From assembly GCA_024279425.1 (NCBI GenBank), contig JAJRRO010000093.1, forward strand, positions 186,001 to 250,000: 64,000 bases of DNA, given 5' to 3'. The notes below the pieces were generated by a model that saw nothing but the letters and a program-made list of their open reading frames with translations, searched no databases and had not been told where the DNA came from. The translations under genes and the position numbers were made by a program. This document shows positions 25,776-36,343 of the stretch, in pieces. The stretch is from Bacteroidota bacterium (lineage in GTDB: Bacteria; Bacteroidota; Bacteroidia; Flavobacteriales; Flavobacteriaceae). Positions within the stretch are counted from its first letter, which is position 1; every line of letters starts with the position of its first letter.

Positions 25776-26252
25776 CTAAAAATCGAAATGATTTTCCACT
25801 TCGTTATAATTGGAGAAATCTACCCCATTAACATCAGTTCCTGCAACTAGGACAAATCTAATATTAAGGTTTTGAGCGAAGGTAGCTGTTAATTCAACGC
25901 TACCAACAAAAATCCTATTGATATCCAAAATTACACTTCCCCCTGAGGCTATGGGAAGTGGTTCCCAAGATGTGCTTGACAATGTCTGCGCATATGCATA
26001 CACCAAACCATTATCAAAGATATCTTGTGTAAGCTCTGGAATATCAAAATCATTATTCCCGACTACAATAGCCGCGTTTTGCAATAGAATAGAAGATACA
26101 TTGGCATTTCCATCCTGACCATCCAACCCGTCAGCTCCTGCTGTTCCCTGAAGTCCTTGTGACCCCGCAGCTCCATCTTCAGGAGAACAGGCTGTCATTA
26201 TCAAGCATCCCATCAAAAAAACAACTTTTAAAAAACTTAATTTAATTTTCAT
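25776..26252 (-). CDS. Collagen-like repeat lipoprotein, copy A
   Basis: Lipoprotein with lipobox MTAC (C22). A short collagen-like Gly-x-y tract follows (DGAAGSQGLQGTAG and on to about residue 50), then a C-terminal beta-rich domain of about 105 residues ending YNEVENHFDF. Such lipoproteins put a short triple-helix stalk and a globular head on the cell surface, and trimerisation is expected. The function of the head is unknown. Copy B upstream has the same plan and the same leader sequence over about 245 bases, showing tandem duplication. Confidence 0.78.
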   Translation of the reverse strand: MKIKLSFLKVVFLMGCLIMTACSPEDGAAGSQGLQGTAGADGLDGQDGNANVSSILLQNAAIVVGNNDFDIPELTQDIFDNGLVYAYAQTLSSTSWEPLPIASGGSVILDINRIFVGSVELTATFAQNLNIRFVLVAGTDVNGVDFSNYNEVENHFDF

Positions 26253-26499
26253 AATTTATATATTGAATGTTCCATGCATTGTCGCATTTCTCAATATTAA
26301 AAGAAAACTGCTCGGATTGCCTTAACCATTTCTTCAAAGTCTAGGACTATTTATGCATTTAATGAATCTTTTGGTCAGTCATATCTAAAAGACAATAATG
26401 TAATGAAACACAAGAAACCCGCTGACCGATTGGCTCCTTCATCTCAAATGAAACTGGCTCAAACGGTCAGCGGGTTTACTAAACTAACTCAAACTATTT
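26253..26499. repeat. Direct repeat, unit 1 (leader of collagen-like copy A)
   Basis: This stretch is nearly the same as 27094-27351. A run of 52 bases (26379-26430 and 27221-27272) is identical, and the rest differs by scattered changes. Each unit contains the 5' leader of a collagen-like gene plus the terminator hairpin of the unit before it, so the duplicated block was gene plus flanks. Confidence 0.85.
26415..26477 (-). terminator. Terminator hairpin after collagen-like copy B
   Basis: The arms AAACCCGCTGACCG and CGGTCAGCGGGTTT are perfectly complementary with a loop of about 35 bases. Read on the minus strand it follows the stop of copy B by 23 bases and is followed by a T-rich stretch. 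The same hairpin recurs at 27257-27322. Confidence 0.75.
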
Positions 26500-27093
26500 C
26501 TAGTAGTCTAATCCAAAATGGTCCATAACTTCTTCATAGGACATCTTTTCATAATCCAAACCAACGTTTTTAGCTGAAACAGATTCAGGAACTACTACAT
26601 ACCTAAATGAATTGGCTGTGTTTAAGGACGTGTATCTGTTGTTATTGTTTATAAACCTGATCGTAATATTTCCTGCTGATAAAATAACCGTCCATGTATC
26701 TATCTCGGCAGGGGAGTCATAGGTCAAGACAATTGGCATTAAAGCCGCCACATCCGTGGGCCATATGGTGGGATTATATCCATTTAGCTTACCATAGGCC
26801 AGAACAACTCCACTATCTATAATCTCTTGGGTAATTTCTGATGCAGCTTGATCATGCTCCAACAAATTTATACCGCCAAATCCTGTTGAAAGTGTATAGC
26901 TGGAAGGTGTAAACCAATCACTGGAAATTACATTGGCATTACCATCTTGGCCATCATCACCATCATCACCTGCAGTTCCTTGTAGACCTTGTAGGCCAGT
27001 AGTGCCATCTGCGCCGTCCTCTGCAGAACAAGATGTTAATACAAGTGATACTATCAATAACCCAACCTTGAAAAAACTTAACTTCTTCCCCAT
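26500..27093 (-). CDS. Collagen-like repeat lipoprotein, copy B
   Basis: Lipoprotein with lipobox LTSC (C22), a collagen-like Gly-x-y tract (DGADGTTGLQGLQG and on through DGDDGQDGNANV), then a beta-rich head of about 145 residues ending in YEEVMDHFGLDY. The head is longer than in copy A, but the two share NANV after the stalk and a similar ending (EEVMDHFGL against NEVENHFDF). The upstream region is the second unit of the direct repeat. The head has no recognised domain. Confidence 0.78.
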   Translation of the reverse strand: MGKKLSFFKVGLLIVSLVLTSCSAEDGADGTTGLQGLQGTAGDDGDDGQDGNANVISSDWFTPSSYTLSTGFGGINLLEHDQAASEITQEIIDSGVVLAYGKLNGYNPTIWPTDVAALMPIVLTYDSPAEIDTWTVILSAGNITIRFINNNNRYTSLNTANSFRYVVVPESVSAKNVGLDYEKMSYEEVMDHFGLDY

Positions 27094-27923: not shown

Positions 27924-28811
27924 ATGGTAAAAAACACGACCAACCTTATCGGGATACTCATAACTATTTTGGTCGGTTCCTACTTTTATAGCAACTTTTG
28001 CTGTGAATGCAGTAAGGTCAAAAAAGAAGTAAGTGCTCCAACCCTAAAGGTAACATCCCACCCCTTTGTTTTTAGTGATGGGGACTTTGCCTATAGTTTG
28101 AATGATAACTTTAACTTTAATGTTTCCTCTTCCACAATTTTAATACCCGTTTCGAAGGAACTACAAGATGGTATCATTGAATTAAAGGCCTACTTGGCCA
28201 ACAATCCCGAGAGAACAATCAATATTACCGGATACTATAAAGGTGATGAAGACAACCTATCGGCCTTTCCAAATCTGGGCATGGCACGAGCCAATGCCGT
28301 AAAGAACTATTTTGTCTCCCAAGGAATACCCTCAAAGGAGATCAATAGTATAGGCAGAAGAGTGGACGAACTAGTTCTTAAGGGAAGTATTTATCAAGGG
28401 CCTTTAAGCTATAGTTTCGAAAAAAGGATGGTCTATGCCGATGAATCCCTCAAGACGCTGTCCCAAAAAATAAAGGATGATATGATGGTGCTTCATTTTA
28501 ATACGGCCGAGACTTCCATAACTTTAACGAATGAACAAAGACAACAATTTGCCGCTATTTCTAGATATTTGGATAAAGTCGAAAAGGCCACGATATTAGT
28601 GGTAGGCCATACCGATGATACTGGTCTGAAGGCCAGAAATTTGAAAATTGGACAAAACCGAGCCGATTTTGCCAAATCTTACCTTGTGGAAAACGGTATT
28701 TCCGAGAGTAGAATCAAGGTAATTTCGAAAGGATTGGAGGAACCCATTGCTGGCAATGCAACGGAAGAGGGAAAAGCAAAAAATCGAAGGACTACTATCA
28801 CTATAAATTAA
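27924..28811 (+). CDS. OmpA family protein with two OmpA-like domains
   Basis: Exported 295-residue protein with an N-terminal hydrophobic anchor (residues 8-24). Two OmpA-like peptidoglycan-binding domains follow. The first (about 50-155) is divergent but keeps NPERTINITGYY and ARANAVKNYFVSQGI. The second (about 190-295) is canonical, with TILVVGHTDDTG, NLKIGQNRADFAKSYL and AKNRRTTI. Double OmpA domains suggest tight peptidoglycan attachment. It lies 12 bases before the helix-hairpin-helix protein gene, and the two are very likely co-transcribed, ending at the terminator at 29408. Confidence 0.85.
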   Translation: MVKNTTNLIGILITILVGSYFYSNFCCECSKVKKEVSAPTLKVTSHPFVFSDGDFAYSLNDNFNFNVSSSTILIPVSKELQDGIIELKAYLANNPERTINITGYYKGDEDNLSAFPNLGMARANAVKNYFVSQGIPSKEINSIGRRVDELVLKGSIYQGPLSYSFEKRMVYADESLKTLSQKIKDDMMVLHFNTAETSITLTNEQRQQFAAISRYLDKVEKATILVVGHTDDTGLKARNLKIGQNRADFAKSYLVENGISESRIKVISKGLEEPIAGNATEEGKAKNRRTTITIN

Positions 28812-28823
28812 ATACTATTAAAA

Positions 28824-29390
28824 ATGGATTTTGTACAGATGAATATTTGGTGTTGGATGATTCCGATTTTGGTAGGTGTTATTTGCGCCTATTTGGGATA
28901 TCTAATAGGCAAAAAGAATAAAAAGGTTAGTATCGATGAGGCGGAATGGATACTTATACAGGAGAAAAACCGAATATTAAAAACCGATTTGGAAGCTTGT
29001 AATGATAAATTATCAGCAGCCTCGACCTTAGCCGCTGAAATTGCCACAACCGCAGCAGCTTCATTGACAGCTACAACAAATACAGAAAGGCATTTTGATT
29101 CTGCTGCTGCAAAAGCTGCCATGGAAAAACCTGTAAAACAGGACGATTTAAAGATTGTTGAGGGTATTGGCCCAAAAATAGCAGGAATGTTCCATGATTC
29201 GGGAATCAGCACTTGGAAAGCACTTTCCGAAGTGGCGGTGGCCAAATGCCACCAGGTATTGGATAAAGCTGGATACCGCTATAAAATGCACGATCCAGCG
29301 TCTTGGCCCATGCAAGCCAAAATGGCGTATGAAGGAAAGTGGGAAGAGCTTGCCAAATGGCAACACGAACATAAACACGGGAAACTATAA
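28824..29390 (+). CDS. Membrane-anchored helix-hairpin-helix protein
   Basis: 188-residue protein with an N-terminal membrane helix (residues 8-28, WCWMIPILVGVICAYLGYLIG), an alanine-rich linker likely to form a coiled coil (about 45-85), and a C-terminal helix-hairpin-helix domain starting DDLKIVEGIGPKIAGMF. That domain resembles the DUF4332-like fold found in bacteroidotal envelope proteins; HhH domains usually bind DNA, but here the protein is anchored and paired with an OmpA protein. The combination is seen in flavobacteria and may link the envelope to nucleic acid or serve a purely protein role; this is inference. Confidence 0.75.
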   Translation: MDFVQMNIWCWMIPILVGVICAYLGYLIGKKNKKVSIDEAEWILIQEKNRILKTDLEACNDKLSAASTLAAEIATTAAASLTATTNTERHFDSAAAKAAMEKPVKQDDLKIVEGIGPKIAGMFHDSGISTWKALSEVAVAKCHQVLDKAGYRYKMHDPASWPMQAKMAYEGKWEELAKWQHEHKHGKL

Positions 29391-29407: not shown

Positions 29408-29440
29408 AAAAAAGCCGATTCAAATTGAATCGGCTTTTTG
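29408..29440. terminator. Bidirectional terminator between the HhH gene and the desaturase
   Basis: The arms AGCCGATTCA and TGAATCGGCT pair around a two-base centre, with A and T runs outside. It separates the converging HhH protein and acyl-ACP desaturase genes and serves both. Confidence 0.85.
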
Positions 29441-29443
29441 TTT

Positions 29444-30439
29444 TTATAATGTTCCGTTTGCCTCTACCCACTTAAAATGATATTGGTCTTGTGGAAAAGA
29501 CATACGCTCCGAAATTCGTTGCAACCTATCCGGTAGCTTCATTAAATAATCGCGTGCTTTTTCAGCTTCATCGGAAAGACTTCTAACCGCCTCTAGTTCC
29601 CAAAAAGCATTCAGTTTCCTAAGAATGTTTATATAATCCTGTGCGGTGTACACCCCTAAACGTTGAGCGCAGTTCGAAAAATTTTCAAAAGCGGTGCCAA
29701 TAGACCCCCCCGATTCACGTAAAAAATGAGCAGGCATCACAATCTTCTTTTTCATCATATCGGCAAAGGCCAACATCATACCAGAAGGATCTTCTCCAAA
29801 AATATTCTTCACGAACTCCCTATAGGCTAAATGATGCCTCATTTCATCTCCGGCAATAATAGTACACATCTTACCCAAAAGCACATTGCCTTTCTTTTTG
29901 GCCATTTGCCCAACCCTCTTATGCGAGATGTTAGTTGCCAATTCCTGAAAAGATGTATATACAAAGTTTTTATATGGGTCCCTATCCGTTCCTATATCAA
30001 ATCCATCGGCAATTAAATATTGGGTTGTAATTTCTACTTCACGCATATTAACCCGGCCCGATAGGTACAAATATTTATTAAGTACATCACCATGGCGATT
30101 TTCTTCGGCCGTCCAAGCCCTTACCCATTTAGACCATCCATTTTTCTTACCATCGTGCTGGTTTACACCTTCAACATCCATTAACCAAGATTCATAGGTT
30201 GGTAAGGCCTCTTCTGTAATCATATCGGCAACCATGGTTACCCAAAAGTCATATCCAAGTTCTTTGGATTCTTCCCGTAATTGTTCAATAGCATCCAAAA
30301 AATTATCACTCTCCGAATCTGGGAGAAAATCAGAAGGCTGCCAAATATCATCTATAGGGATCAAAAAAGAATCCATAAACTCATCCACTTTCGGCTCTAT
30401 GGCCTGCATCACTTCCAACCGTATATTCTTGGTAATCAT
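29444..30439 (-). CDS. Acyl-ACP desaturase
   Basis: Soluble di-iron desaturase that puts a double bond into acyl chains on acyl carrier protein. The two iron-binding motifs are EENRHG and DEMRHH, in the order and spacing of plant-type stearoyl-ACP delta9-desaturases. The length of 331 residues fits. It lies 63 bases downstream of a phosphatase in the same direction and may belong to the SPFH operon, giving that unit a lipid-modifying enzyme. The double-bond position and preferred chain length cannot be read from the sequence. Confidence 0.9.
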   Translation of the reverse strand: MITKNIRLEVMQAIEPKVDEFMDSFLIPIDDIWQPSDFLPDSESDNFLDAIEQLREESKELGYDFWVTMVADMITEEALPTYESWLMDVEGVNQHDGKKNGWSKWVRAWTAEENRHGDVLNKYLYLSGRVNMREVEITTQYLIADGFDIGTDRDPYKNFVYTSFQELATNISHKRVGQMAKKKGNVLLGKMCTIIAGDEMRHHLAYREFVKNIFGEDPSGMMLAFADMMKKKIVMPAHFLRESGGSIGTAFENFSNCAQRLGVYTAQDYINILRKLNAFWELEAVRSLSDEAEKARDYLMKLPDRLQRISERMSFPQDQYHFKWVEANGTL

Positions 30440-30502: not shown

Positions 30503-31228
30503 TTAATTTCTGCCGTTTTCTTTTGGGTAAAAAGTATATACAGGGTCGCTTTGCCAGATTTGTTTTGTGTCTATGTCTATAATTGATAAAGGGCCCTTGA
30601 AAGCGGCTCCTGTATCAATATTCCAAACATTGGCTGCATTCTGTGGGGTTGTCCTGCCCAATTGTGTAACAGGGGTATGACCTATGTAAATTTCTTTGTA
30701 ATGCGATAATCGCTGAGGGTATAATTGATCTTCTTTATTCAATTTAGGATTTAATGAAAGTGCCAATTCCCATAAAGTCCTGTCCCAATAAAAGGTCTTG
30801 GAAAAATACTCGTGATTTATACCTTTCAGGTTAGTGAACCCCGCATGAAGAAATAAACGATCACTCGAATCCAAATGATAGTTCAGTAGACTATCAAAGA
30901 ATCGAATATGCTCCGCTATGATAGCTTCATCTGCCTCGTTATACGAACTGACGGTTGCCGAACCCCCATGGTGTAACCACATTGGGTTATTCTCCCCTTT
31001 GACCAGCCAGTCTGAACAAAGTTCGTCATGATTCCCCCGTAGGTAATAACAGTTATGGGTCTTCTCTAAATCTATCAGAAAGTTAACGGTTTCCACCGCC
31101 TGGCTCCACCCGTCAACATAATCTCCAAGAAAAACAAGCTTATCATTTACAGTGACTTGTGCCCGTTGCAAAACCTGTTCAAGTGCTTTTAACCCTGAAT
31201 GAATATCCCCAATTACCAGTGTTCTCAT
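30503..31228 (-). CDS. PPP-type metallophosphatase
   Basis: Metallophosphoesterase of the serine/threonine phosphatase type, 241 residues. The metal-binding motifs occur in order: GDIHSG near the N-terminus, GDYVDGW, GNHDE, and later LHAGF and IGHTP. Relatives include bacterial PrpA/B-like protein phosphatases and diadenosine tetraphosphatases, so the substrate may be a phosphoprotein or a nucleotide. Its start overlaps the stop of the zinc-ribbon gene by four bases, and this coupling suggests it acts with the SPFH/zinc-ribbon pair. Confidence 0.85.
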   Translation of the reverse strand: MRTLVIGDIHSGLKALEQVLQRAQVTVNDKLVFLGDYVDGWSQAVETVNFLIDLEKTHNCYYLRGNHDELCSDWLVKGENNPMWLHHGGSATVSSYNEADEAIIAEHIRFFDSLLNYHLDSSDRLFLHAGFTNLKGINHEYFSKTFYWDRTLWELALSLNPKLNKEDQLYPQRLSHYKEIYIGHTPVTQLGRTTPQNAANVWNIDTGAAFKGPLSIIDIDTKQIWQSDPVYTFYPKENGRN

Positions 31229-32307
31229 TGTACAAAAATCGCAATAAGAGCAAAAACCGCAATGATAAAAAGCACCAAAAATAAAATTTTCCAGAAAGAA
31301 TAAGGCCTTGTTCCGCTTACTGCCCCTGTTTGCCCGTTAATATAAAAGTGATATTCCTTGCCTTTGTACTTATATGAGCTAATATAAACCGGGAGTAAAA
31401 TGTGCTTAAAAGTCTCGTCAGACAGTTTAATATCTGCATGACCAATTCGCTGGGTATCTCCACCTATATCTCTCCGAATCCAGCTATAGGCAATTCGCTT
31501 CGCTTCCTGAAATGATTGGTGATGGCCATCTTTAAGTGAAATAGTATACTTCTCTGTAACAAAACCAGCAAGATATTTTGAATTGAATACAGCCAGCTCC
31601 TTCAGGTTCCAAAAAGTTATTTTTTTTGGAATATCTCTTCGTTTTTTCTCCGATGCATTGATCAATATATCGTCTACAAAGCCACTTACCGTTCCAGAGG
31701 CAGGAGACCATCTAGTCTTTTGCACTTGTCTTGGCCGCATACCATTTTTGGTCTTAACCATTTGTGTCTCATAATAATAATCTCCCCTTTGCCCTTGATA
31801 GGACGCATAAAGATTTGAATCGAACGTCCAATAAGGAACATATAGCCCATGAAGTCCTTCTGGGTCTAATGCAGCTCTCTTCAATTTATTCGGAGCAAAC
31901 CATTTATCATTGACCCAGTTCTTAAAAATGGCCCTTGCTTTTTTAGCGTCCAATTGAAAGGGAACCAGGGCACCGGGAAGAATCCAACCTTCTTTTTCAA
32001 TATCTTCTCGAATAAGTGGCTCTCCACAATACACGCAATCGAGCGACTTATAGTTTTCCTTGACATGTTGGTTGGCCCCACAATTTTTACAATTGAGTAA
32101 ATCAATGGTTTCTGTATAGGCATTTTCACCAACAACTTTTAAATAGTGCTGAAGTTCCAATTCTTCAAAACTTCTTTTGGTTTGTTCTATAAATTCCTCA
32201 TAACCGCAGTACGCACAATTCAATTGATGCGAACCGGGTTTGAATTTTAATTCTGCACCACAATTGGCACAGGATTTATTGAGTTCGGAATTTAAGGTTT
32301 CTTCCAT
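31225..32307 (-). CDS. Double zinc-ribbon membrane protein, YdjG-like
   Basis: The 360-residue protein starts with two zinc ribbons: CANCG/CAYCG (about residues 11-35) and CKNCG/CVYCG (about 72-98). A long cytoplasmic region has LYVPYWTFD, and there is one C-terminal membrane helix (about 340-358, ILFLVLFIIAVFALIAIF). Genes of this kind accompany SPFH-domain virion-core proteins, as in the Bacillus subtilis ydjGHI group. I prefer the ATG at 32307 (MEETLNSEL) over an in-frame ATG 24 bases upstream. The gene lies 59 bases after the SPFH gene and overlaps the phosphatase gene. Confidence 0.75.
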   Translation of the reverse strand: MEETLNSELNKSCANCGAELKFKPGSHQLNCAYCGYEEFIEQTKRSFEELELQHYLKVVGENAYTETIDLLNCKNCGANQHVKENYKSLDCVYCGEPLIREDIEKEGWILPGALVPFQLDAKKARAIFKNWVNDKWFAPNKLKRAALDPEGLHGLYVPYWTFDSNLYASYQGQRGDYYYETQMVKTKNGMRPRQVQKTRWSPASGTVSGFVDDILINASEKKRRDIPKKITFWNLKELAVFNSKYLAGFVTEKYTISLKDGHHQSFQEAKRIAYSWIRRDIGGDTQRIGHADIKLSDETFKHILLPVYISSYKYKGKEYHFYINGQTGAVSGTRPYSFWKILFLVLFIIAVFALIAIFVQ

Positions 32308-32366
32308 AGACAAATATTGCCCTTCCCACAATCGTATGGGAATTCATTACAAAAATAGTATGTGAT

Positions 32367-33503
32367 TTACTCCGTTGGTAAAGGTGGTGGTGTATTTCCC
32401 CCTAAAAAGGCCTTAAGTTCTTCAACATCCTTTAAAGCTGCCCAATTGGCCATGCCTTGTCTCCATACCAATGAGTCCTTGTTTATGGTCCGGCTTGCGA
32501 ATAGCTCTTTGAGTTTATCAATGGTCACAGGGCCTGCCGATTGTCCGTTAACTGCATAGTGATATAGTACTTGGGTCGGCATTGGCGGCGGAACTGCCAC
32601 TTTCTGTTGGGGCTGAACGGCAAAAGGTTGGGGGGGCGATTGGCCCATCATGTTGCCCATCTGCTGGGCCAAGACAAATCCCATTCCCATTCCCATTCCT
32701 GCACCTGCTGTACCGCCTTCATTCTTGGCAGCAGCTTCCATGGCTTTGGCAGCTTTGAATTGCGAAAGCTTGGTCATATCAAGCTTATCCAATCTACTGT
32801 ACTCAAAGATTTCCTTTTTGAGCTCCTCAGGCATCGAGACATTTTCAATATAAAATTTTTCCAACTCTATACCCACCCGACCAAATTCCGGTTGCATAAC
32901 CTCTCGGCAGGTCTCAGAAAGCTCACTGGTGTTCGCTGCATATAACTCTATGGGCAGGTTAGCCTCGCCAACAGTGTCCGTGAAACGAGTTACTATTAGA
33001 CTTTTTAAATGTTCGTTGATCTCGTAATTGGTAAAATTTGCATCAGTACCCACAACATCGACCACAAATTTTCCAGAGTCGCTTATTTTAAAACTATAGG
33101 TTCCAAAAGCCCTTATCTCTACCAAACCAAAACGTTCATCACTTAATATAAAGGGGTTTTTGGTCCCCCATTTTTCGTCGGTAAATAGTCGGGTATTCAC
33201 ATAATATACCTCAGCTTTGAACGGACTGTTAAAACCATACTTCCATCCTTTTAATGTTGTCAGGATGGGAAGGTTTTTAGTATTTAAGGTATACGTTCCC
33301 GGGGTAAAAACATCGGCCAACTGACCTTCATTTACAAAAACGGCCGTCTGTCCTTCACGAACGATTAATTTTGCCCCATTTTTTATTTCGTTTTGATATC
33401 GCTCAAATCTATGGACGATGGTATCGTTGGTATTGTCTAGCCATTCAATGATATCAATAAATTCATGACTGAGCTTGTTTTTTATTTCTTCAAATAAGTT
33501 CAT
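32367..33503 (-). CDS. SPFH domain (virion core, YdjI-like) protein with GYF_2 domain
   Basis: 378-residue protein. The N-terminal SPFH/virion-core domain (about 15-240) includes LIVREGQTAVFVNEGQLADVF and the band-7 end IENVSMPEELKKE. A low-complexity Gly/Met stretch (GMGMGMGFVLAQ) follows, then a Pro-rich linker, and a C-terminal GYF_2 domain with HYAVNGQSAGPV. SPFH proteins assemble into rings that organise membrane microdomains; the YdjI subgroup recruits PspA-type stress proteins in Bacillus. The start is the ATG at 33503 (MNLFEEIK), the longer open frame being non-coding. It is the first gene of a likely four-gene run. Confidence 0.82.
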   Translation of the reverse strand: MNLFEEIKNKLSHEFIDIIEWLDNTNDTIVHRFERYQNEIKNGAKLIVREGQTAVFVNEGQLADVFTPGTYTLNTKNLPILTTLKGWKYGFNSPFKAEVYYVNTRLFTDEKWGTKNPFILSDERFGLVEIRAFGTYSFKISDSGKFVVDVVGTDANFTNYEINEHLKSLIVTRFTDTVGEANLPIELYAANTSELSETCREVMQPEFGRVGIELEKFYIENVSMPEELKKEIFEYSRLDKLDMTKLSQFKAAKAMEAAAKNEGGTAGAGMGMGMGFVLAQQMGNMMGQSPPQPFAVQPQQKVAVPPPMPTQVLYHYAVNGQSAGPVTIDKLKELFASRTINKDSLVWRQGMANWAALKDVEELKAFLGGNTPPPLPTE

Positions 33504-33799: not shown

Positions 33800-36343
33800 A
33801 TGTCAGTAAAAACCATTCCCGCCCAAAGAAAAGTCTATTCCCAAGAAGAAGCCTATAAATCTAGCTTAGCCTATTTCGAAGGTGACGATCTCGCTGCCCA
33901 AGTATGGATCAACAAGTATGCACTAAAAGATTCAAAGGGGAACATCTATGAACTCAATCCTAATGACATGCATCGCAGAATTGCCAAGGAAATAGCTCGG
34001 GTGGAACAAAAGTATCCCAACCCCCTTTCCGAGGGTGAGGTTTTTAATTTAATCCAAAAATTCAAATACATCGTACCGCAAGGAAGCCCAATGGCAGGTA
34101 TTGGGAATCCTTTTCAAATCGCATCCCTCTCCAATTGTTTCGTAATCGGAAACGAAGGAGTATCTGACTCTTATGGCGGTATCATGAAGATCGATCAAGA
34201 ACAGGTACAATTAATGAAACGTCGTGGAGGGGTTGGTCATGACCTTTCGCATATTAGGCCCAAAGGATCTGGGGTAAAGAACTCGGCCTTGACTTCTACT
34301 GGGCTTGTCCCCTTTATGGAGCGTTATTCAAATTCTACACGCGAGGTGGCACAAGATGGTCGCAGGGGCGCATTGATGTTATCCGTATCTATTAATCATC
34401 CCGATGCCGAGGATTTTATCGACGCTAAAATGGAACAAGGGAAAGTCACAGGGGCAAATGTTTCGGTAAGAATCGATGATGCTTTTATGTCGGCTGTTGA
34501 GAACAATACTCTCTATACCCAAAAGTTTCCTATCCATAGCAAGAACCCCAAAAACTCCATAGATATTGATGCCAAAAAATTATGGAGTAAAATTGTGCAT
34601 AATGCCTGGCAGTCTGCAGAACCCGGAATCTTGTTTTGGGATACGATTATAAAAGAGTCTGTCCCGGATTGTTATGCTGATCTCGGTTACCAAACGGTAT
34701 CTACCAATCCATGTGGTGAAATCCCATTATGCCCTTATGATTCTTGTCGCCTTTTAGCCATTAACCTATTCTCTTATGTAGAGGGTCCATTTAAGGAAGA
34801 AGCCTCCTTTAACTTCCCCCTCTTTAAGAAGCATATCATGGCCGCCCAACGCATCATGGATGATATTATCGACTTGGAACTCGAAAAAGTCGATGCTATT
34901 TTGGCCAAAATCAATGCAGACCCAGAATTGGTTGAAACCAAGGCTGTTGAAAAAAGGTTATGGGAAAAAATCAAGGAAAAAGCCGTAAAAGGTCGTCGTA
35001 CAGGAATTGGAATAACCGCTGAGGGAGATATGTTGGCTGCCTTGGGACTACGTTACGGGAGCATCGAGGCCAACGAATTTTCCATCAAAGTGCATAAAAC
35101 AATTGCATTGGAAGCCTATAGAGCATCTGTACATACAGCCAAAGAAAGAGGGGCTTTTGAGATTTTCGATTCCAAAAGGGAAAAAGAAAACCCTTTTATT
35201 CTTCGATTAAAAAAGGCCGATGAAAAATTGTATTATGAAATGTTGGAATATGGCAGAAGAAATATCGCCTTATTGACCATCGCGCCAACTGGCACCACAA
35301 GCCTAATGACCCAGACCACATCGGGCATCGAACCGGTTTTTCTCCCTGTATATAAGCGAAGAAGAAAGGTGAACCCCAACGATCGAAATGCAAACGTGGC
35401 CTTTATTGATGAAGTAGGTGATTCATGGGAAGAATATGTAGTGTTCCATCACAGATTTAAACAATGGATGAAGGTCAAAGGTTTTGACATCAATAAAAAA
35501 TACAGTCAGGAAGAACTTGACAAAATCGTAGCACAATCACCCTATTATAAAGCCACTTCCAATGACGTGGATTGGTTAAGTAAAGTTCAATTGCAGGGTG
35601 CTGTACAAAAATGGGTTGATCACTCTATAAGTGTTACCATCAACCTACCCAATGATGTGCAGGAAGAAATGGTTGGCAAACTCTATTTGGAAGCATGGAA
35701 AGCAGGATGTAAGGGGGTTACGGTCTATCGTGACGGCTCCAGATCAGGGGTGCTGATATCAAACGAGCCTGAAGTAGAAGAAACTTTGACCCATTTCCCA
35801 ACAAAGAGACCCCAAGTCCTGGAAGCCGATGTGGTTCGCTTTCAAAACAACAAGGAAAAATGGATTGCCTTTATAGGTCTGATAGACGACAACCCGTATG
35901 AGATCTTTACAGGATTCGCAGATGATGAAGATGGGATTCTTATTCCCCGATGGGTCAACAAGGGCTTGATTATTAAAAATAGAGATGAGGATGGCACCTC
36001 TCGCTATGATTTTCAATATAAGAACACAAGGGGCTATAAAACTACCATTGAGGGACTATCGCACAAATTCAATCCGGAGTATTGGAATTATGCCAAGTTA
36101 ATCTCTGGCACCTTACGCCATGGCATGCCTATTGAAAAAGTGGTGGATCTGATCAATAGCCTACAATTAGAAGGGGAATCAATCAATACCTGGAAAAATG
36201 GAGTTGCCCGGGCCCTCAAGCGCTTTGTCGCCGACGGCACTGAAGCTAAAGGACAAAAATGTGATAATTGTAAATCGACAAATTTAATATACCAAGAAGG
36301 ATGCTTGACGTGTACCGATTGTGGTTCCTCCAAATGCGGATAA
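33800..36343 (+). CDS. nrdJ: Adenosylcobalamin-dependent ribonucleotide reductase (class II)
   Basis: Class II ribonucleotide reductase, 847 residues, making deoxyribonucleotides with a cobalamin radical, so it works with or without oxygen. Key residues are Cys113 in SNCFVIGN (redox pair), Cys304 and Glu306 in TNPCGEIPL, and the substrate loop TIAPTGTTSLM. The C-terminal tail carries a zinc-ribbon CDNCK...CLTCTDCG that recycles the active-site disulfide. The 296 bases upstream are very AT-rich. I see no cobalamin riboswitch or NrdR box there. No metal-dependent class I enzyme is in the window. Confidence 0.93.
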   Translation: MSVKTIPAQRKVYSQEEAYKSSLAYFEGDDLAAQVWINKYALKDSKGNIYELNPNDMHRRIAKEIARVEQKYPNPLSEGEVFNLIQKFKYIVPQGSPMAGIGNPFQIASLSNCFVIGNEGVSDSYGGIMKIDQEQVQLMKRRGGVGHDLSHIRPKGSGVKNSALTSTGLVPFMERYSNSTREVAQDGRRGALMLSVSINHPDAEDFIDAKMEQGKVTGANVSVRIDDAFMSAVENNTLYTQKFPIHSKNPKNSIDIDAKKLWSKIVHNAWQSAEPGILFWDTIIKESVPDCYADLGYQTVSTNPCGEIPLCPYDSCRLLAINLFSYVEGPFKEEASFNFPLFKKHIMAAQRIMDDIIDLELEKVDAILAKINADPELVETKAVEKRLWEKIKEKAVKGRRTGIGITAEGDMLAALGLRYGSIEANEFSIKVHKTIALEAYRASVHTAKERGAFEIFDSKREKENPFILRLKKADEKLYYEMLEYGRRNIALLTIAPTGTTSLMTQTTSGIEPVFLPVYKRRRKVNPNDRNANVAFIDEVGDSWEEYVVFHHRFKQWMKVKGFDINKKYSQEELDKIVAQSPYYKATSNDVDWLSKVQLQGAVQKWVDHSISVTINLPNDVQEEMVGKLYLEAWKAGCKGVTVYRDGSRSGVLISNEPEVEETLTHFPTKRPQVLEADVVRFQNNKEKWIAFIGLIDDNPYEIFTGFADDEDGILIPRWVNKGLIIKNRDEDGTSRYDFQYKNTRGYKTTIEGLSHKFNPEYWNYAKLISGTLRHGMPIEKVVDLINSLQLEGESINTWKNGVARALKRFVADGTEAKGQKCDNCKSTNLIYQEGCLTCTDCGSSKCG

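Follow-up and report, generated by a model that had tools for sequence, protein, structure and literature searches.

The four genes considered here lie on the minus strand of a 64,000-nucleotide stretch of a Flavobacteriaceae genome (Bacteroidota bacterium, GenBank assembly GCA_024279425.1, contig JAJRRO010000093.1, positions 186,001 to 250,000), called below the window, with positions counted from its first letter. They are genuine open reading frames (ORFs) in the order S, Z, P and D. S (32367..33503) encodes a protein of 378 aa, counted from its ATG, with an SPFH domain (Band_7_1, PF13421) and a C-terminal GYF_2 domain, and Z (31225..32307) a YdjG-like protein of 360 aa, a length that depends on our choice of ATG, with two N-terminal zinc ribbons, a conserved middle domain and one C-terminal transmembrane (TM) helix. 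P (30503..31228) and D (29444..30439) encode a predicted PPP-like metallophosphatase and a predicted soluble acyl-ACP desaturase, respectively. A gap of 59 nt separates S from Z, the end of Z shares 4 nt with P, and a gap of 63 nt separates P from D. A previous sequence-only reading had described an SPFH and GYF_2 protein, a double zinc-ribbon membrane protein and a coupled phosphatase in one run, with a desaturase after them, and all four ORFs were confirmed; the interval it gave, 30503-33503, takes in S, Z and P but leaves out D, which it also describes. We found that the core of this locus is the S-Z dyad, a pair already known in kind across several phyla, with this copy differing in that its genome gives no match to PspA or to TPM and in the GYF_2 tail of S, while P is a neighbour and possible third member of the unit, and D is a neighbour associated with P and not with S-Z.

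The conservation of the dyad carries this conclusion. Z was found in 35 of 120 family genomes, and S stands directly upstream in all 35, including one genome (G106) where S is split across contigs and was still counted. S matches 36 family genomes, the extra one (G019), like a second copy in G050, being remote (30–32%) and having no adjoining Z. Among named loci, taken as the best 80 of at least 565 and thus biased to near relatives, three without a callable Z ORF were dropped, and S is upstream of Z in 77 of the remaining 77, three of them with a small intervening ORF; the nearest relative of Z among those best 80 belongs to a Maribacter metagenome-assembled genome (89%), which suggests that the source, a marine flavobacterium, is close to Maribacter. 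A survey of 395 Bacteroidota genomes found Z in 14. Nine of these belong to other families, and S adjoins Z in six of the nine (the adjacency in L090 and L095 was taken from coordinates). Plasmids also carry these genes, with tblastn matches to S in 23 records and to Z in 12, and in all five plasmid loci that were opened (Vibrio, Enterococcus, Tsukamurella, Comamonas and Paracoccus, thus spanning Pseudomonadota, Actinomycetota and Bacillota) an SPFH gene lies directly before Z.

The SPFH domain of S (Band_7_1, 1e-101) occupies 32787..33416 on the minus strand, and the protein scores 339–341 bits against PF13421, whose cut-off is 24 (341 bits in the search of its own genome), while its hydropathy maximum over 19 residues, 0.72, gives no TM segment. 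The GYF_2 domain (5e-20) lies at 32415..32564 (minus strand) and is the sole PF14237 match found in the genome. In the case of Z, all zinc-ribbon matches in Pfam were sub-threshold, and the ribbons were recognised by eight cysteines that are invariant across 15 homologues, C13, C16, C31 and C34 in the first ribbon (32203..32271, minus strand) and C73, C76, C91 and C94 in the second (32026..32091, minus strand). The predicted C-terminal TM helix (residues 338–359; 31231..31296, minus strand) has a hydropathy of 3.5 and a local pLDDT of 87–89. A PDB search with the Z profile gave nothing below E 0.09.

Work in Bacillus has treated the SPFH and zinc-ribbon proteins as what links PspA to the membrane. 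YdjI of B. subtilis has no membrane anchor and depends on YdjG and YdjH to localise to the membrane, which becomes more rigid when YdjI is lost (PMC8581546). YdjG is described as combining two zinc ribbons with a YpeB-related domain and a TM segment, and the SPFH protein encoded in the pspA-ydjGHI operon as ending in a zinc ribbon (PMC11237479). The likeness to YdjG and YdjI claimed in the sequence-only reading was borne out. S has the PF13421 SPFH domain, a family for which the B. subtilis genome is positive (the match there is presumably YdjI), and, like YdjI, it lacks a membrane anchor. Z shares with YdjG the double zinc ribbon and the TM segment, as judged through the published description and an Enterococcus protein with SPFH and TPM genes on either side, a match that covers the whole of Z (hhalign 99.9%, E 1e-34, 28% identity). 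This Enterococcus gallinarum plasmid locus (L189) has the order SPFH, zinc ribbon, TPM, that is, the YdjI-YdjG-YdjH set, and its SPFH protein is homologous to S too (hhalign 96.4%, E 1e-9); it differs in having TPM after Z, in the S tail, which is a double zinc ribbon (sub-threshold DZR), and in that neither P nor D is annotated in the stretch read. Since the S-Z pair recurs in the family and on plasmids, and in Enterococcus with TPM/YdjH alongside, S and Z are homologous to Bacillus YdjI and YdjG.

The locus also differs from the Bacillus system. The gene order here is S-Z followed by P and D, S has GYF_2 where the B. subtilis SPFH protein has its C-terminal zinc ribbon, and the window's genome, listed as 100% complete, gave no match to PspA (PF04012, PspA_IM30) and none to TPM (PF04536), the family of YdjH, with B. 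subtilis positive as the control in both searches, so that the earlier remark that no PspA is visible holds for the whole genome. Because PspA and TPM are not matched, the locus is not a member of a PspA-YdjGHI system, even though its proteins are homologous. PspA exceeds the cut-off in 12 of the 120 family genomes and in six of the 35 with the dyad; four of these six carry it on a contig other than that of the dyad, and two carry it no closer to the dyad than 116 kb. Two further dyad genomes (G001 and G011) have a sub-threshold match, and 29 of the 35, the window's included, have none over the cut-off. Given that the pair is kept without PspA and TPM here, and without PspA in those 29 genomes, it probably has a job of its own apart from PspA.

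The tail of S is swappable, as seen when ten relatives were scanned for domains. GYF_2 ends the S proteins of Vibrio, Tsukamurella, Paracoccus, Bacteroides finegoldii, L088 and L089, whereas the S protein of Comamonas ends in HTH_17, that of Enterococcus in the double zinc ribbon, and those of L094 and L096 in SHOCT. The Vibrio, Paracoccus, Tsukamurella and Comamonas plasmid dyads therefore resemble that of the window in having an SPFH gene immediately before a zinc-ribbon gene, the first three also sharing its tail, and differ from it in that neither P nor D is annotated within 5 kb. GYF domains bind proline-rich peptides, a preference that GYF_2 may share, and S carries such motifs on both sides of this domain, PPPMP on its N-terminal side (32577..32591, minus strand) and PPPLP in the C-terminal tail (32376..32390, minus strand). 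Counted over 112 S rows, each of at least 340 aa, the linker motif is present in 111 and a PPPxP tail in all 112; PPPxP occurs in 114 of 116 S proteins versus 0/114 for Z, 0/68 for P and 0/38 for D. PPP motifs flank GYF on both sides in eight of eight diverse S proteins of the GYF_2 type, the window's included, and polyproline motifs occur in none of four S proteins with other tails (SHOCT, HTH or zinc ribbon; the tail type of L095 in this comparison was assigned by eye). Among 60 family genomes there are 16 GYF_2 matches, 14 of which are the S gene of the dyad. The simplest reading of these motif patterns suggests that reader and ligand reside in one S protein and would clasp adjacent subunits, and the swappable tail with its GYF-polyproline pattern offers a cheap test of scaffold assembly.

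The one PDB entry matched by the S profile at E < 0.01 was gliding protein X (7z3c, 5e-8), in its GYF portion. Searches of the open-licence literature, in which silence is weak evidence, found nothing on SPFH combined with flavobacteria and zinc ribbon, nothing joining GltJ with GYF, and no 'GYF domain' in the Myxococcus motility papers retrieved; the combination of SPFH and GYF, like that of SPFH, zinc ribbon and phosphatase, led to work on other systems alone (excerpts of PMC7159879), and the papers listed for PF13421 and COG4260 concerned viruses. SHOCT-tailed PF13421 proteins have been described as the same SPFH family with another short C-terminal domain, and an experiment on SHOCT did not support a role as an oligomerisation domain (excerpts of PMC3581485); in L094 and L096, SHOCT replaces GYF_2 and the polyproline motifs are absent.

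We favour, at a little better than even, a two-protein S-Z membrane scaffold working without PspA and TPM, with P and D lying downstream chiefly because the dyad sits in a conserved flavobacterial block. Z would be anchored in the inner membrane through its C-terminal helix, with its zinc ribbons probably on the cytoplasmic side, and would recruit soluble S, which would oligomerise beneath the membrane, the GYF_2 domain of each subunit probably gripping the PPPxP linker or tail of the adjacent subunit and thereby clasping the assembly. Such an assembly could organise or fluidise the membrane under envelope stress, and P is probably co-transcribed with the dyad here. The flotillins FloA and FloT are likewise SPFH proteins said to influence membrane fluidity, but they bind the membrane on their own (excerpts of PMC8581546), whereas S has no TM segment and has PF13421 as its best match.

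Several observations weigh against this two-protein scaffold. Three genomes of one distant Bacteroidota genus (L091, L092 and L093) have Z with no S called adjacent, and offer a test case for what Z does alone. Of the 23 plasmid records with S, 12 gave no match to Z at E 1e-3, and the two of these that were opened, from Bacteroides and Butyrivibrio, carry other genes after S. As for the clasp, the single readable non-SPFH GYF_2 control, of two found, has PP and no PPPxP, and proline-rich linkers around GYF_2 may be general. The structure models built from 15-row alignments were poor for S (pLDDT 40.1) and poor overall for Z (pLDDT 58.8). In B. subtilis, YdjH is the membrane partner seen touching YdjI (excerpts of PMC8581546), and therefore Z must here bind S itself or via something else, direct S-Z binding being a proposal. 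Finally, the occurrence of P (33 of 35 dyad genomes versus 42 of 85 others, not corrected for phylogeny) and its persistence beside Z (P is the downstream neighbour of Z in 49 of 71 block rows, while any one upstream neighbour of S reaches at most 17 of 71) hint that P is more than a bystander.

These last observations also support an alternative that is on balance unlikely, in which Flavobacteriaceae have a genuine unit of three genes, S, Z and P, with the scaffold recruiting or controlling the phosphatase and D a bystander; as a proposal, P would dephosphorylate a protein of the scaffold or of the envelope, or else a small phosphoester, under membrane stress. Consistent with it, P runs in the same direction as Z and lies <400 nt from it in 25 of the 35 dyad-bearing family genomes, the gap measuring -1 to 69 nt, P stays beside Z as the upstream neighbour of S turns over, and P lies directly upstream of S in four rows. 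On a tree of 110 Z sequences the Z-P arrangement needs eight changes, at least four of them forced by well-supported branches. Against the three-gene unit stands the dependence of P on the block. Among 114 surveyed Z loci, some genomes being represented twice, P lies in the fetched stretch (mostly 15–18 kb, some shorter at contig ends) in 67 of 75 block loci, one of three intermediate loci and 0 of 36 outside the block; the first figure is partly built in because the block markers were drawn partly from P-centred stretches, while the 0/36 is unaffected. The neighbour analysis and the tree used 110 rows after four duplicates were dropped, and the block gene labels (SDR, ALDH, HAAO, FruK, MoxR and others) are by-eye readings of sequence clusters.

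Within this block P, and often D too, occurs without the dyad. The P family is matched in 75 of the 120 family genomes and has two recurrent neighbourhoods; of 20 P-centred stretches without the dyad, which we selected from these 75 genomes, 11 are in the dyad's block, seven in the second neighbourhood and two in neither. Two genomes (G021 and G086) have the dyad elsewhere while P remains in the block without it, and in another (G115) P is in the second neighbourhood with the dyad elsewhere. Outside the family, P is absent at E 1e-25 from seven of the nine Z-bearing genomes, one of the others giving split matches and one a match near the threshold, neither P nor D is called adjacent to the dyad, and no phosphatase is annotated within 5 kb of the five opened plasmid dyads. 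Conservation of P beside the dyad, as the sequence-only reading expected of relatives, thus fails outside the block and survives inside it as a durable Z-P adjacency. Because this adjacency outlasts the S side and P is commoner with the dyad, a local functional link of P is possible, and we grade it as weak to moderate, whereas a functional link of D is unlikely. A combined version, with a self-clasping S scaffold on a zinc-ribbon anchor, without PspA and TPM, in which the flavobacterial phosphatase would switch the clasp or a client, seems to us improbable.

The original interpretation of the locus, a four-gene variant that senses membrane state and alters it by lipid desaturation, is very unlikely, and we rejected it. 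It had in its favour the single run of genes, with no minus-strand terminator-like site in the S-Z and P-D gaps, the effect of YdjI on membrane fluidity in Bacillus (excerpts of PMC8581546), and an order that is in part conserved, S-Z-P-D being complete in 12 of the 35 dyad-bearing family genomes; of the 77 named loci, 34 have Z-P and 25 Z-P-D, most of these 25 being from relatives of Maribacter, Zobellia, Cellulophaga and Eudoraea. However, genomes with the dyad show no excess of D (17/35) over those that lack the dyad (47/85; Fisher p 0.55), 11 family genomes have a P-D pair and no dyad, and neither gene was called beside the dyads outside the family or is annotated beside the plasmid dyads. 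When gene order was checked across Bacteroidota, as the sequence-only reading had suggested, P and D were not kept beside S-Z; its likeness to YdjG and YdjI and its missing PspA remain, and its desaturation variant does not. The case shows how a conserved genomic block can mimic a functional operon.

There is similarly little chance that the dyad is a Psp branch recruiting a PspA encoded elsewhere. The YdjI-PspA interaction of Bacillus (excerpts of PMC8581546), the six dyad genomes with PspA over the cut-off and the two with sub-threshold matches, as well as the report that band-7 genes adjoin pspA in Bacteroidota among other phyla (excerpts of PMC9239133), point that way; the window's genome differs from the reported neighbourhood in having no such pspA, and its lack of any PF04012 match, barring a PspA-like protein that this profile misses, led us to reject a PspA elsewhere in it. 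The absence of a match over the cut-off from 29 of the 35 dyad genomes also counts against this reading. An anti-phage or conflict role is scarcely credible and was rejected. In its favour are a weak PADLOC match of Z to PDC-S64 (23.5 bits, 6e-6, residues 7–107, the zinc-ribbon part) and a TIR-domain gene near the dyad on one Vibrio plasmid; against it, S, P and D have no PADLOC match at E 0.01, and the dyad stays in one block of apparently housekeeping genes across much of the family. The TIR-domain gene (V. coralliilyticus, L188:1-861) lies on the opposite strand, three genes upstream of the dyad SPFH gene.

As for the two downstream proteins, P matches Metallophos (63.9 bits, 3e-17) and carries GDxH, GDYxDGW, GNHD and GHTP, its core being at least 97% conserved in 40 rows; GDxH, GNHD and GHTP we take to be PPP core motifs. 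The canonical PPP phosphatase motif GDxVDRG carries an arginine, whereas P has GDYVDGW at this position, without the arginine, and GDYxDGW is likewise at least 97% conserved in the 40 rows. Its nearest solved chains are 4j6o (9e-7) and 1g5b (6e-6), and it scores far below the cut-offs of the PrpE, ApaH and related equivalog models. Judged by these motifs, P is an atypical PPP-like subfamily in which the core is present and the motif arginine absent. D matches FA_desaturase_2 (2e-140) and plant stearoyl-ACP desaturase 1afr (E 4e-98), with EENRHG and DExRH conserved in 21 rows, by which it is assigned as a plant-type soluble acyl-ACP desaturase.

Transcription signals were scanned across the region. 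Six terminator-like sites were found against 4.1 expected, the two on the minus strand lying within S and within D, and a stem-loop 3' of D (29409-29439), listed by the scan on the plus strand only, is a candidate terminator in which a minus-strand T run is visible by eye at the stem end. The promoter scan was no better than chance, with 14 found and 13.2 expected from shuffles, and neither the gaps nor the sequence upstream of S held a strict match to the flavobacterial promoter motif.

Divergent to S, at 33800-36343 on the plus strand, lies a gene for a ribonucleotide reductase of the adenosylcobalamin-dependent class II (TIGR02504, 562 bits, over the cut-off), a position occupied by similar-sized genes (845–875 aa) in some Maribacter loci. 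Two genes converge on D at 27924-29390 on the plus strand, one of the OmpA family and one of 188 aa that weakly matches helix-hairpin-helix; the cluster of the latter is a block marker, found in 17 of the 40 loci that were clustered first. The dyad of G021 (L107:9350-15036) precedes a 1461-aa Cas9-like ORF followed by possible Cas1 and Cas2 ORFs, as read by eye. At 25776-27093 on the minus strand, two adjacent small lipoprotein-like genes with collagen-like Gly-X-Y repeats appear, by eye, to be paralogues.

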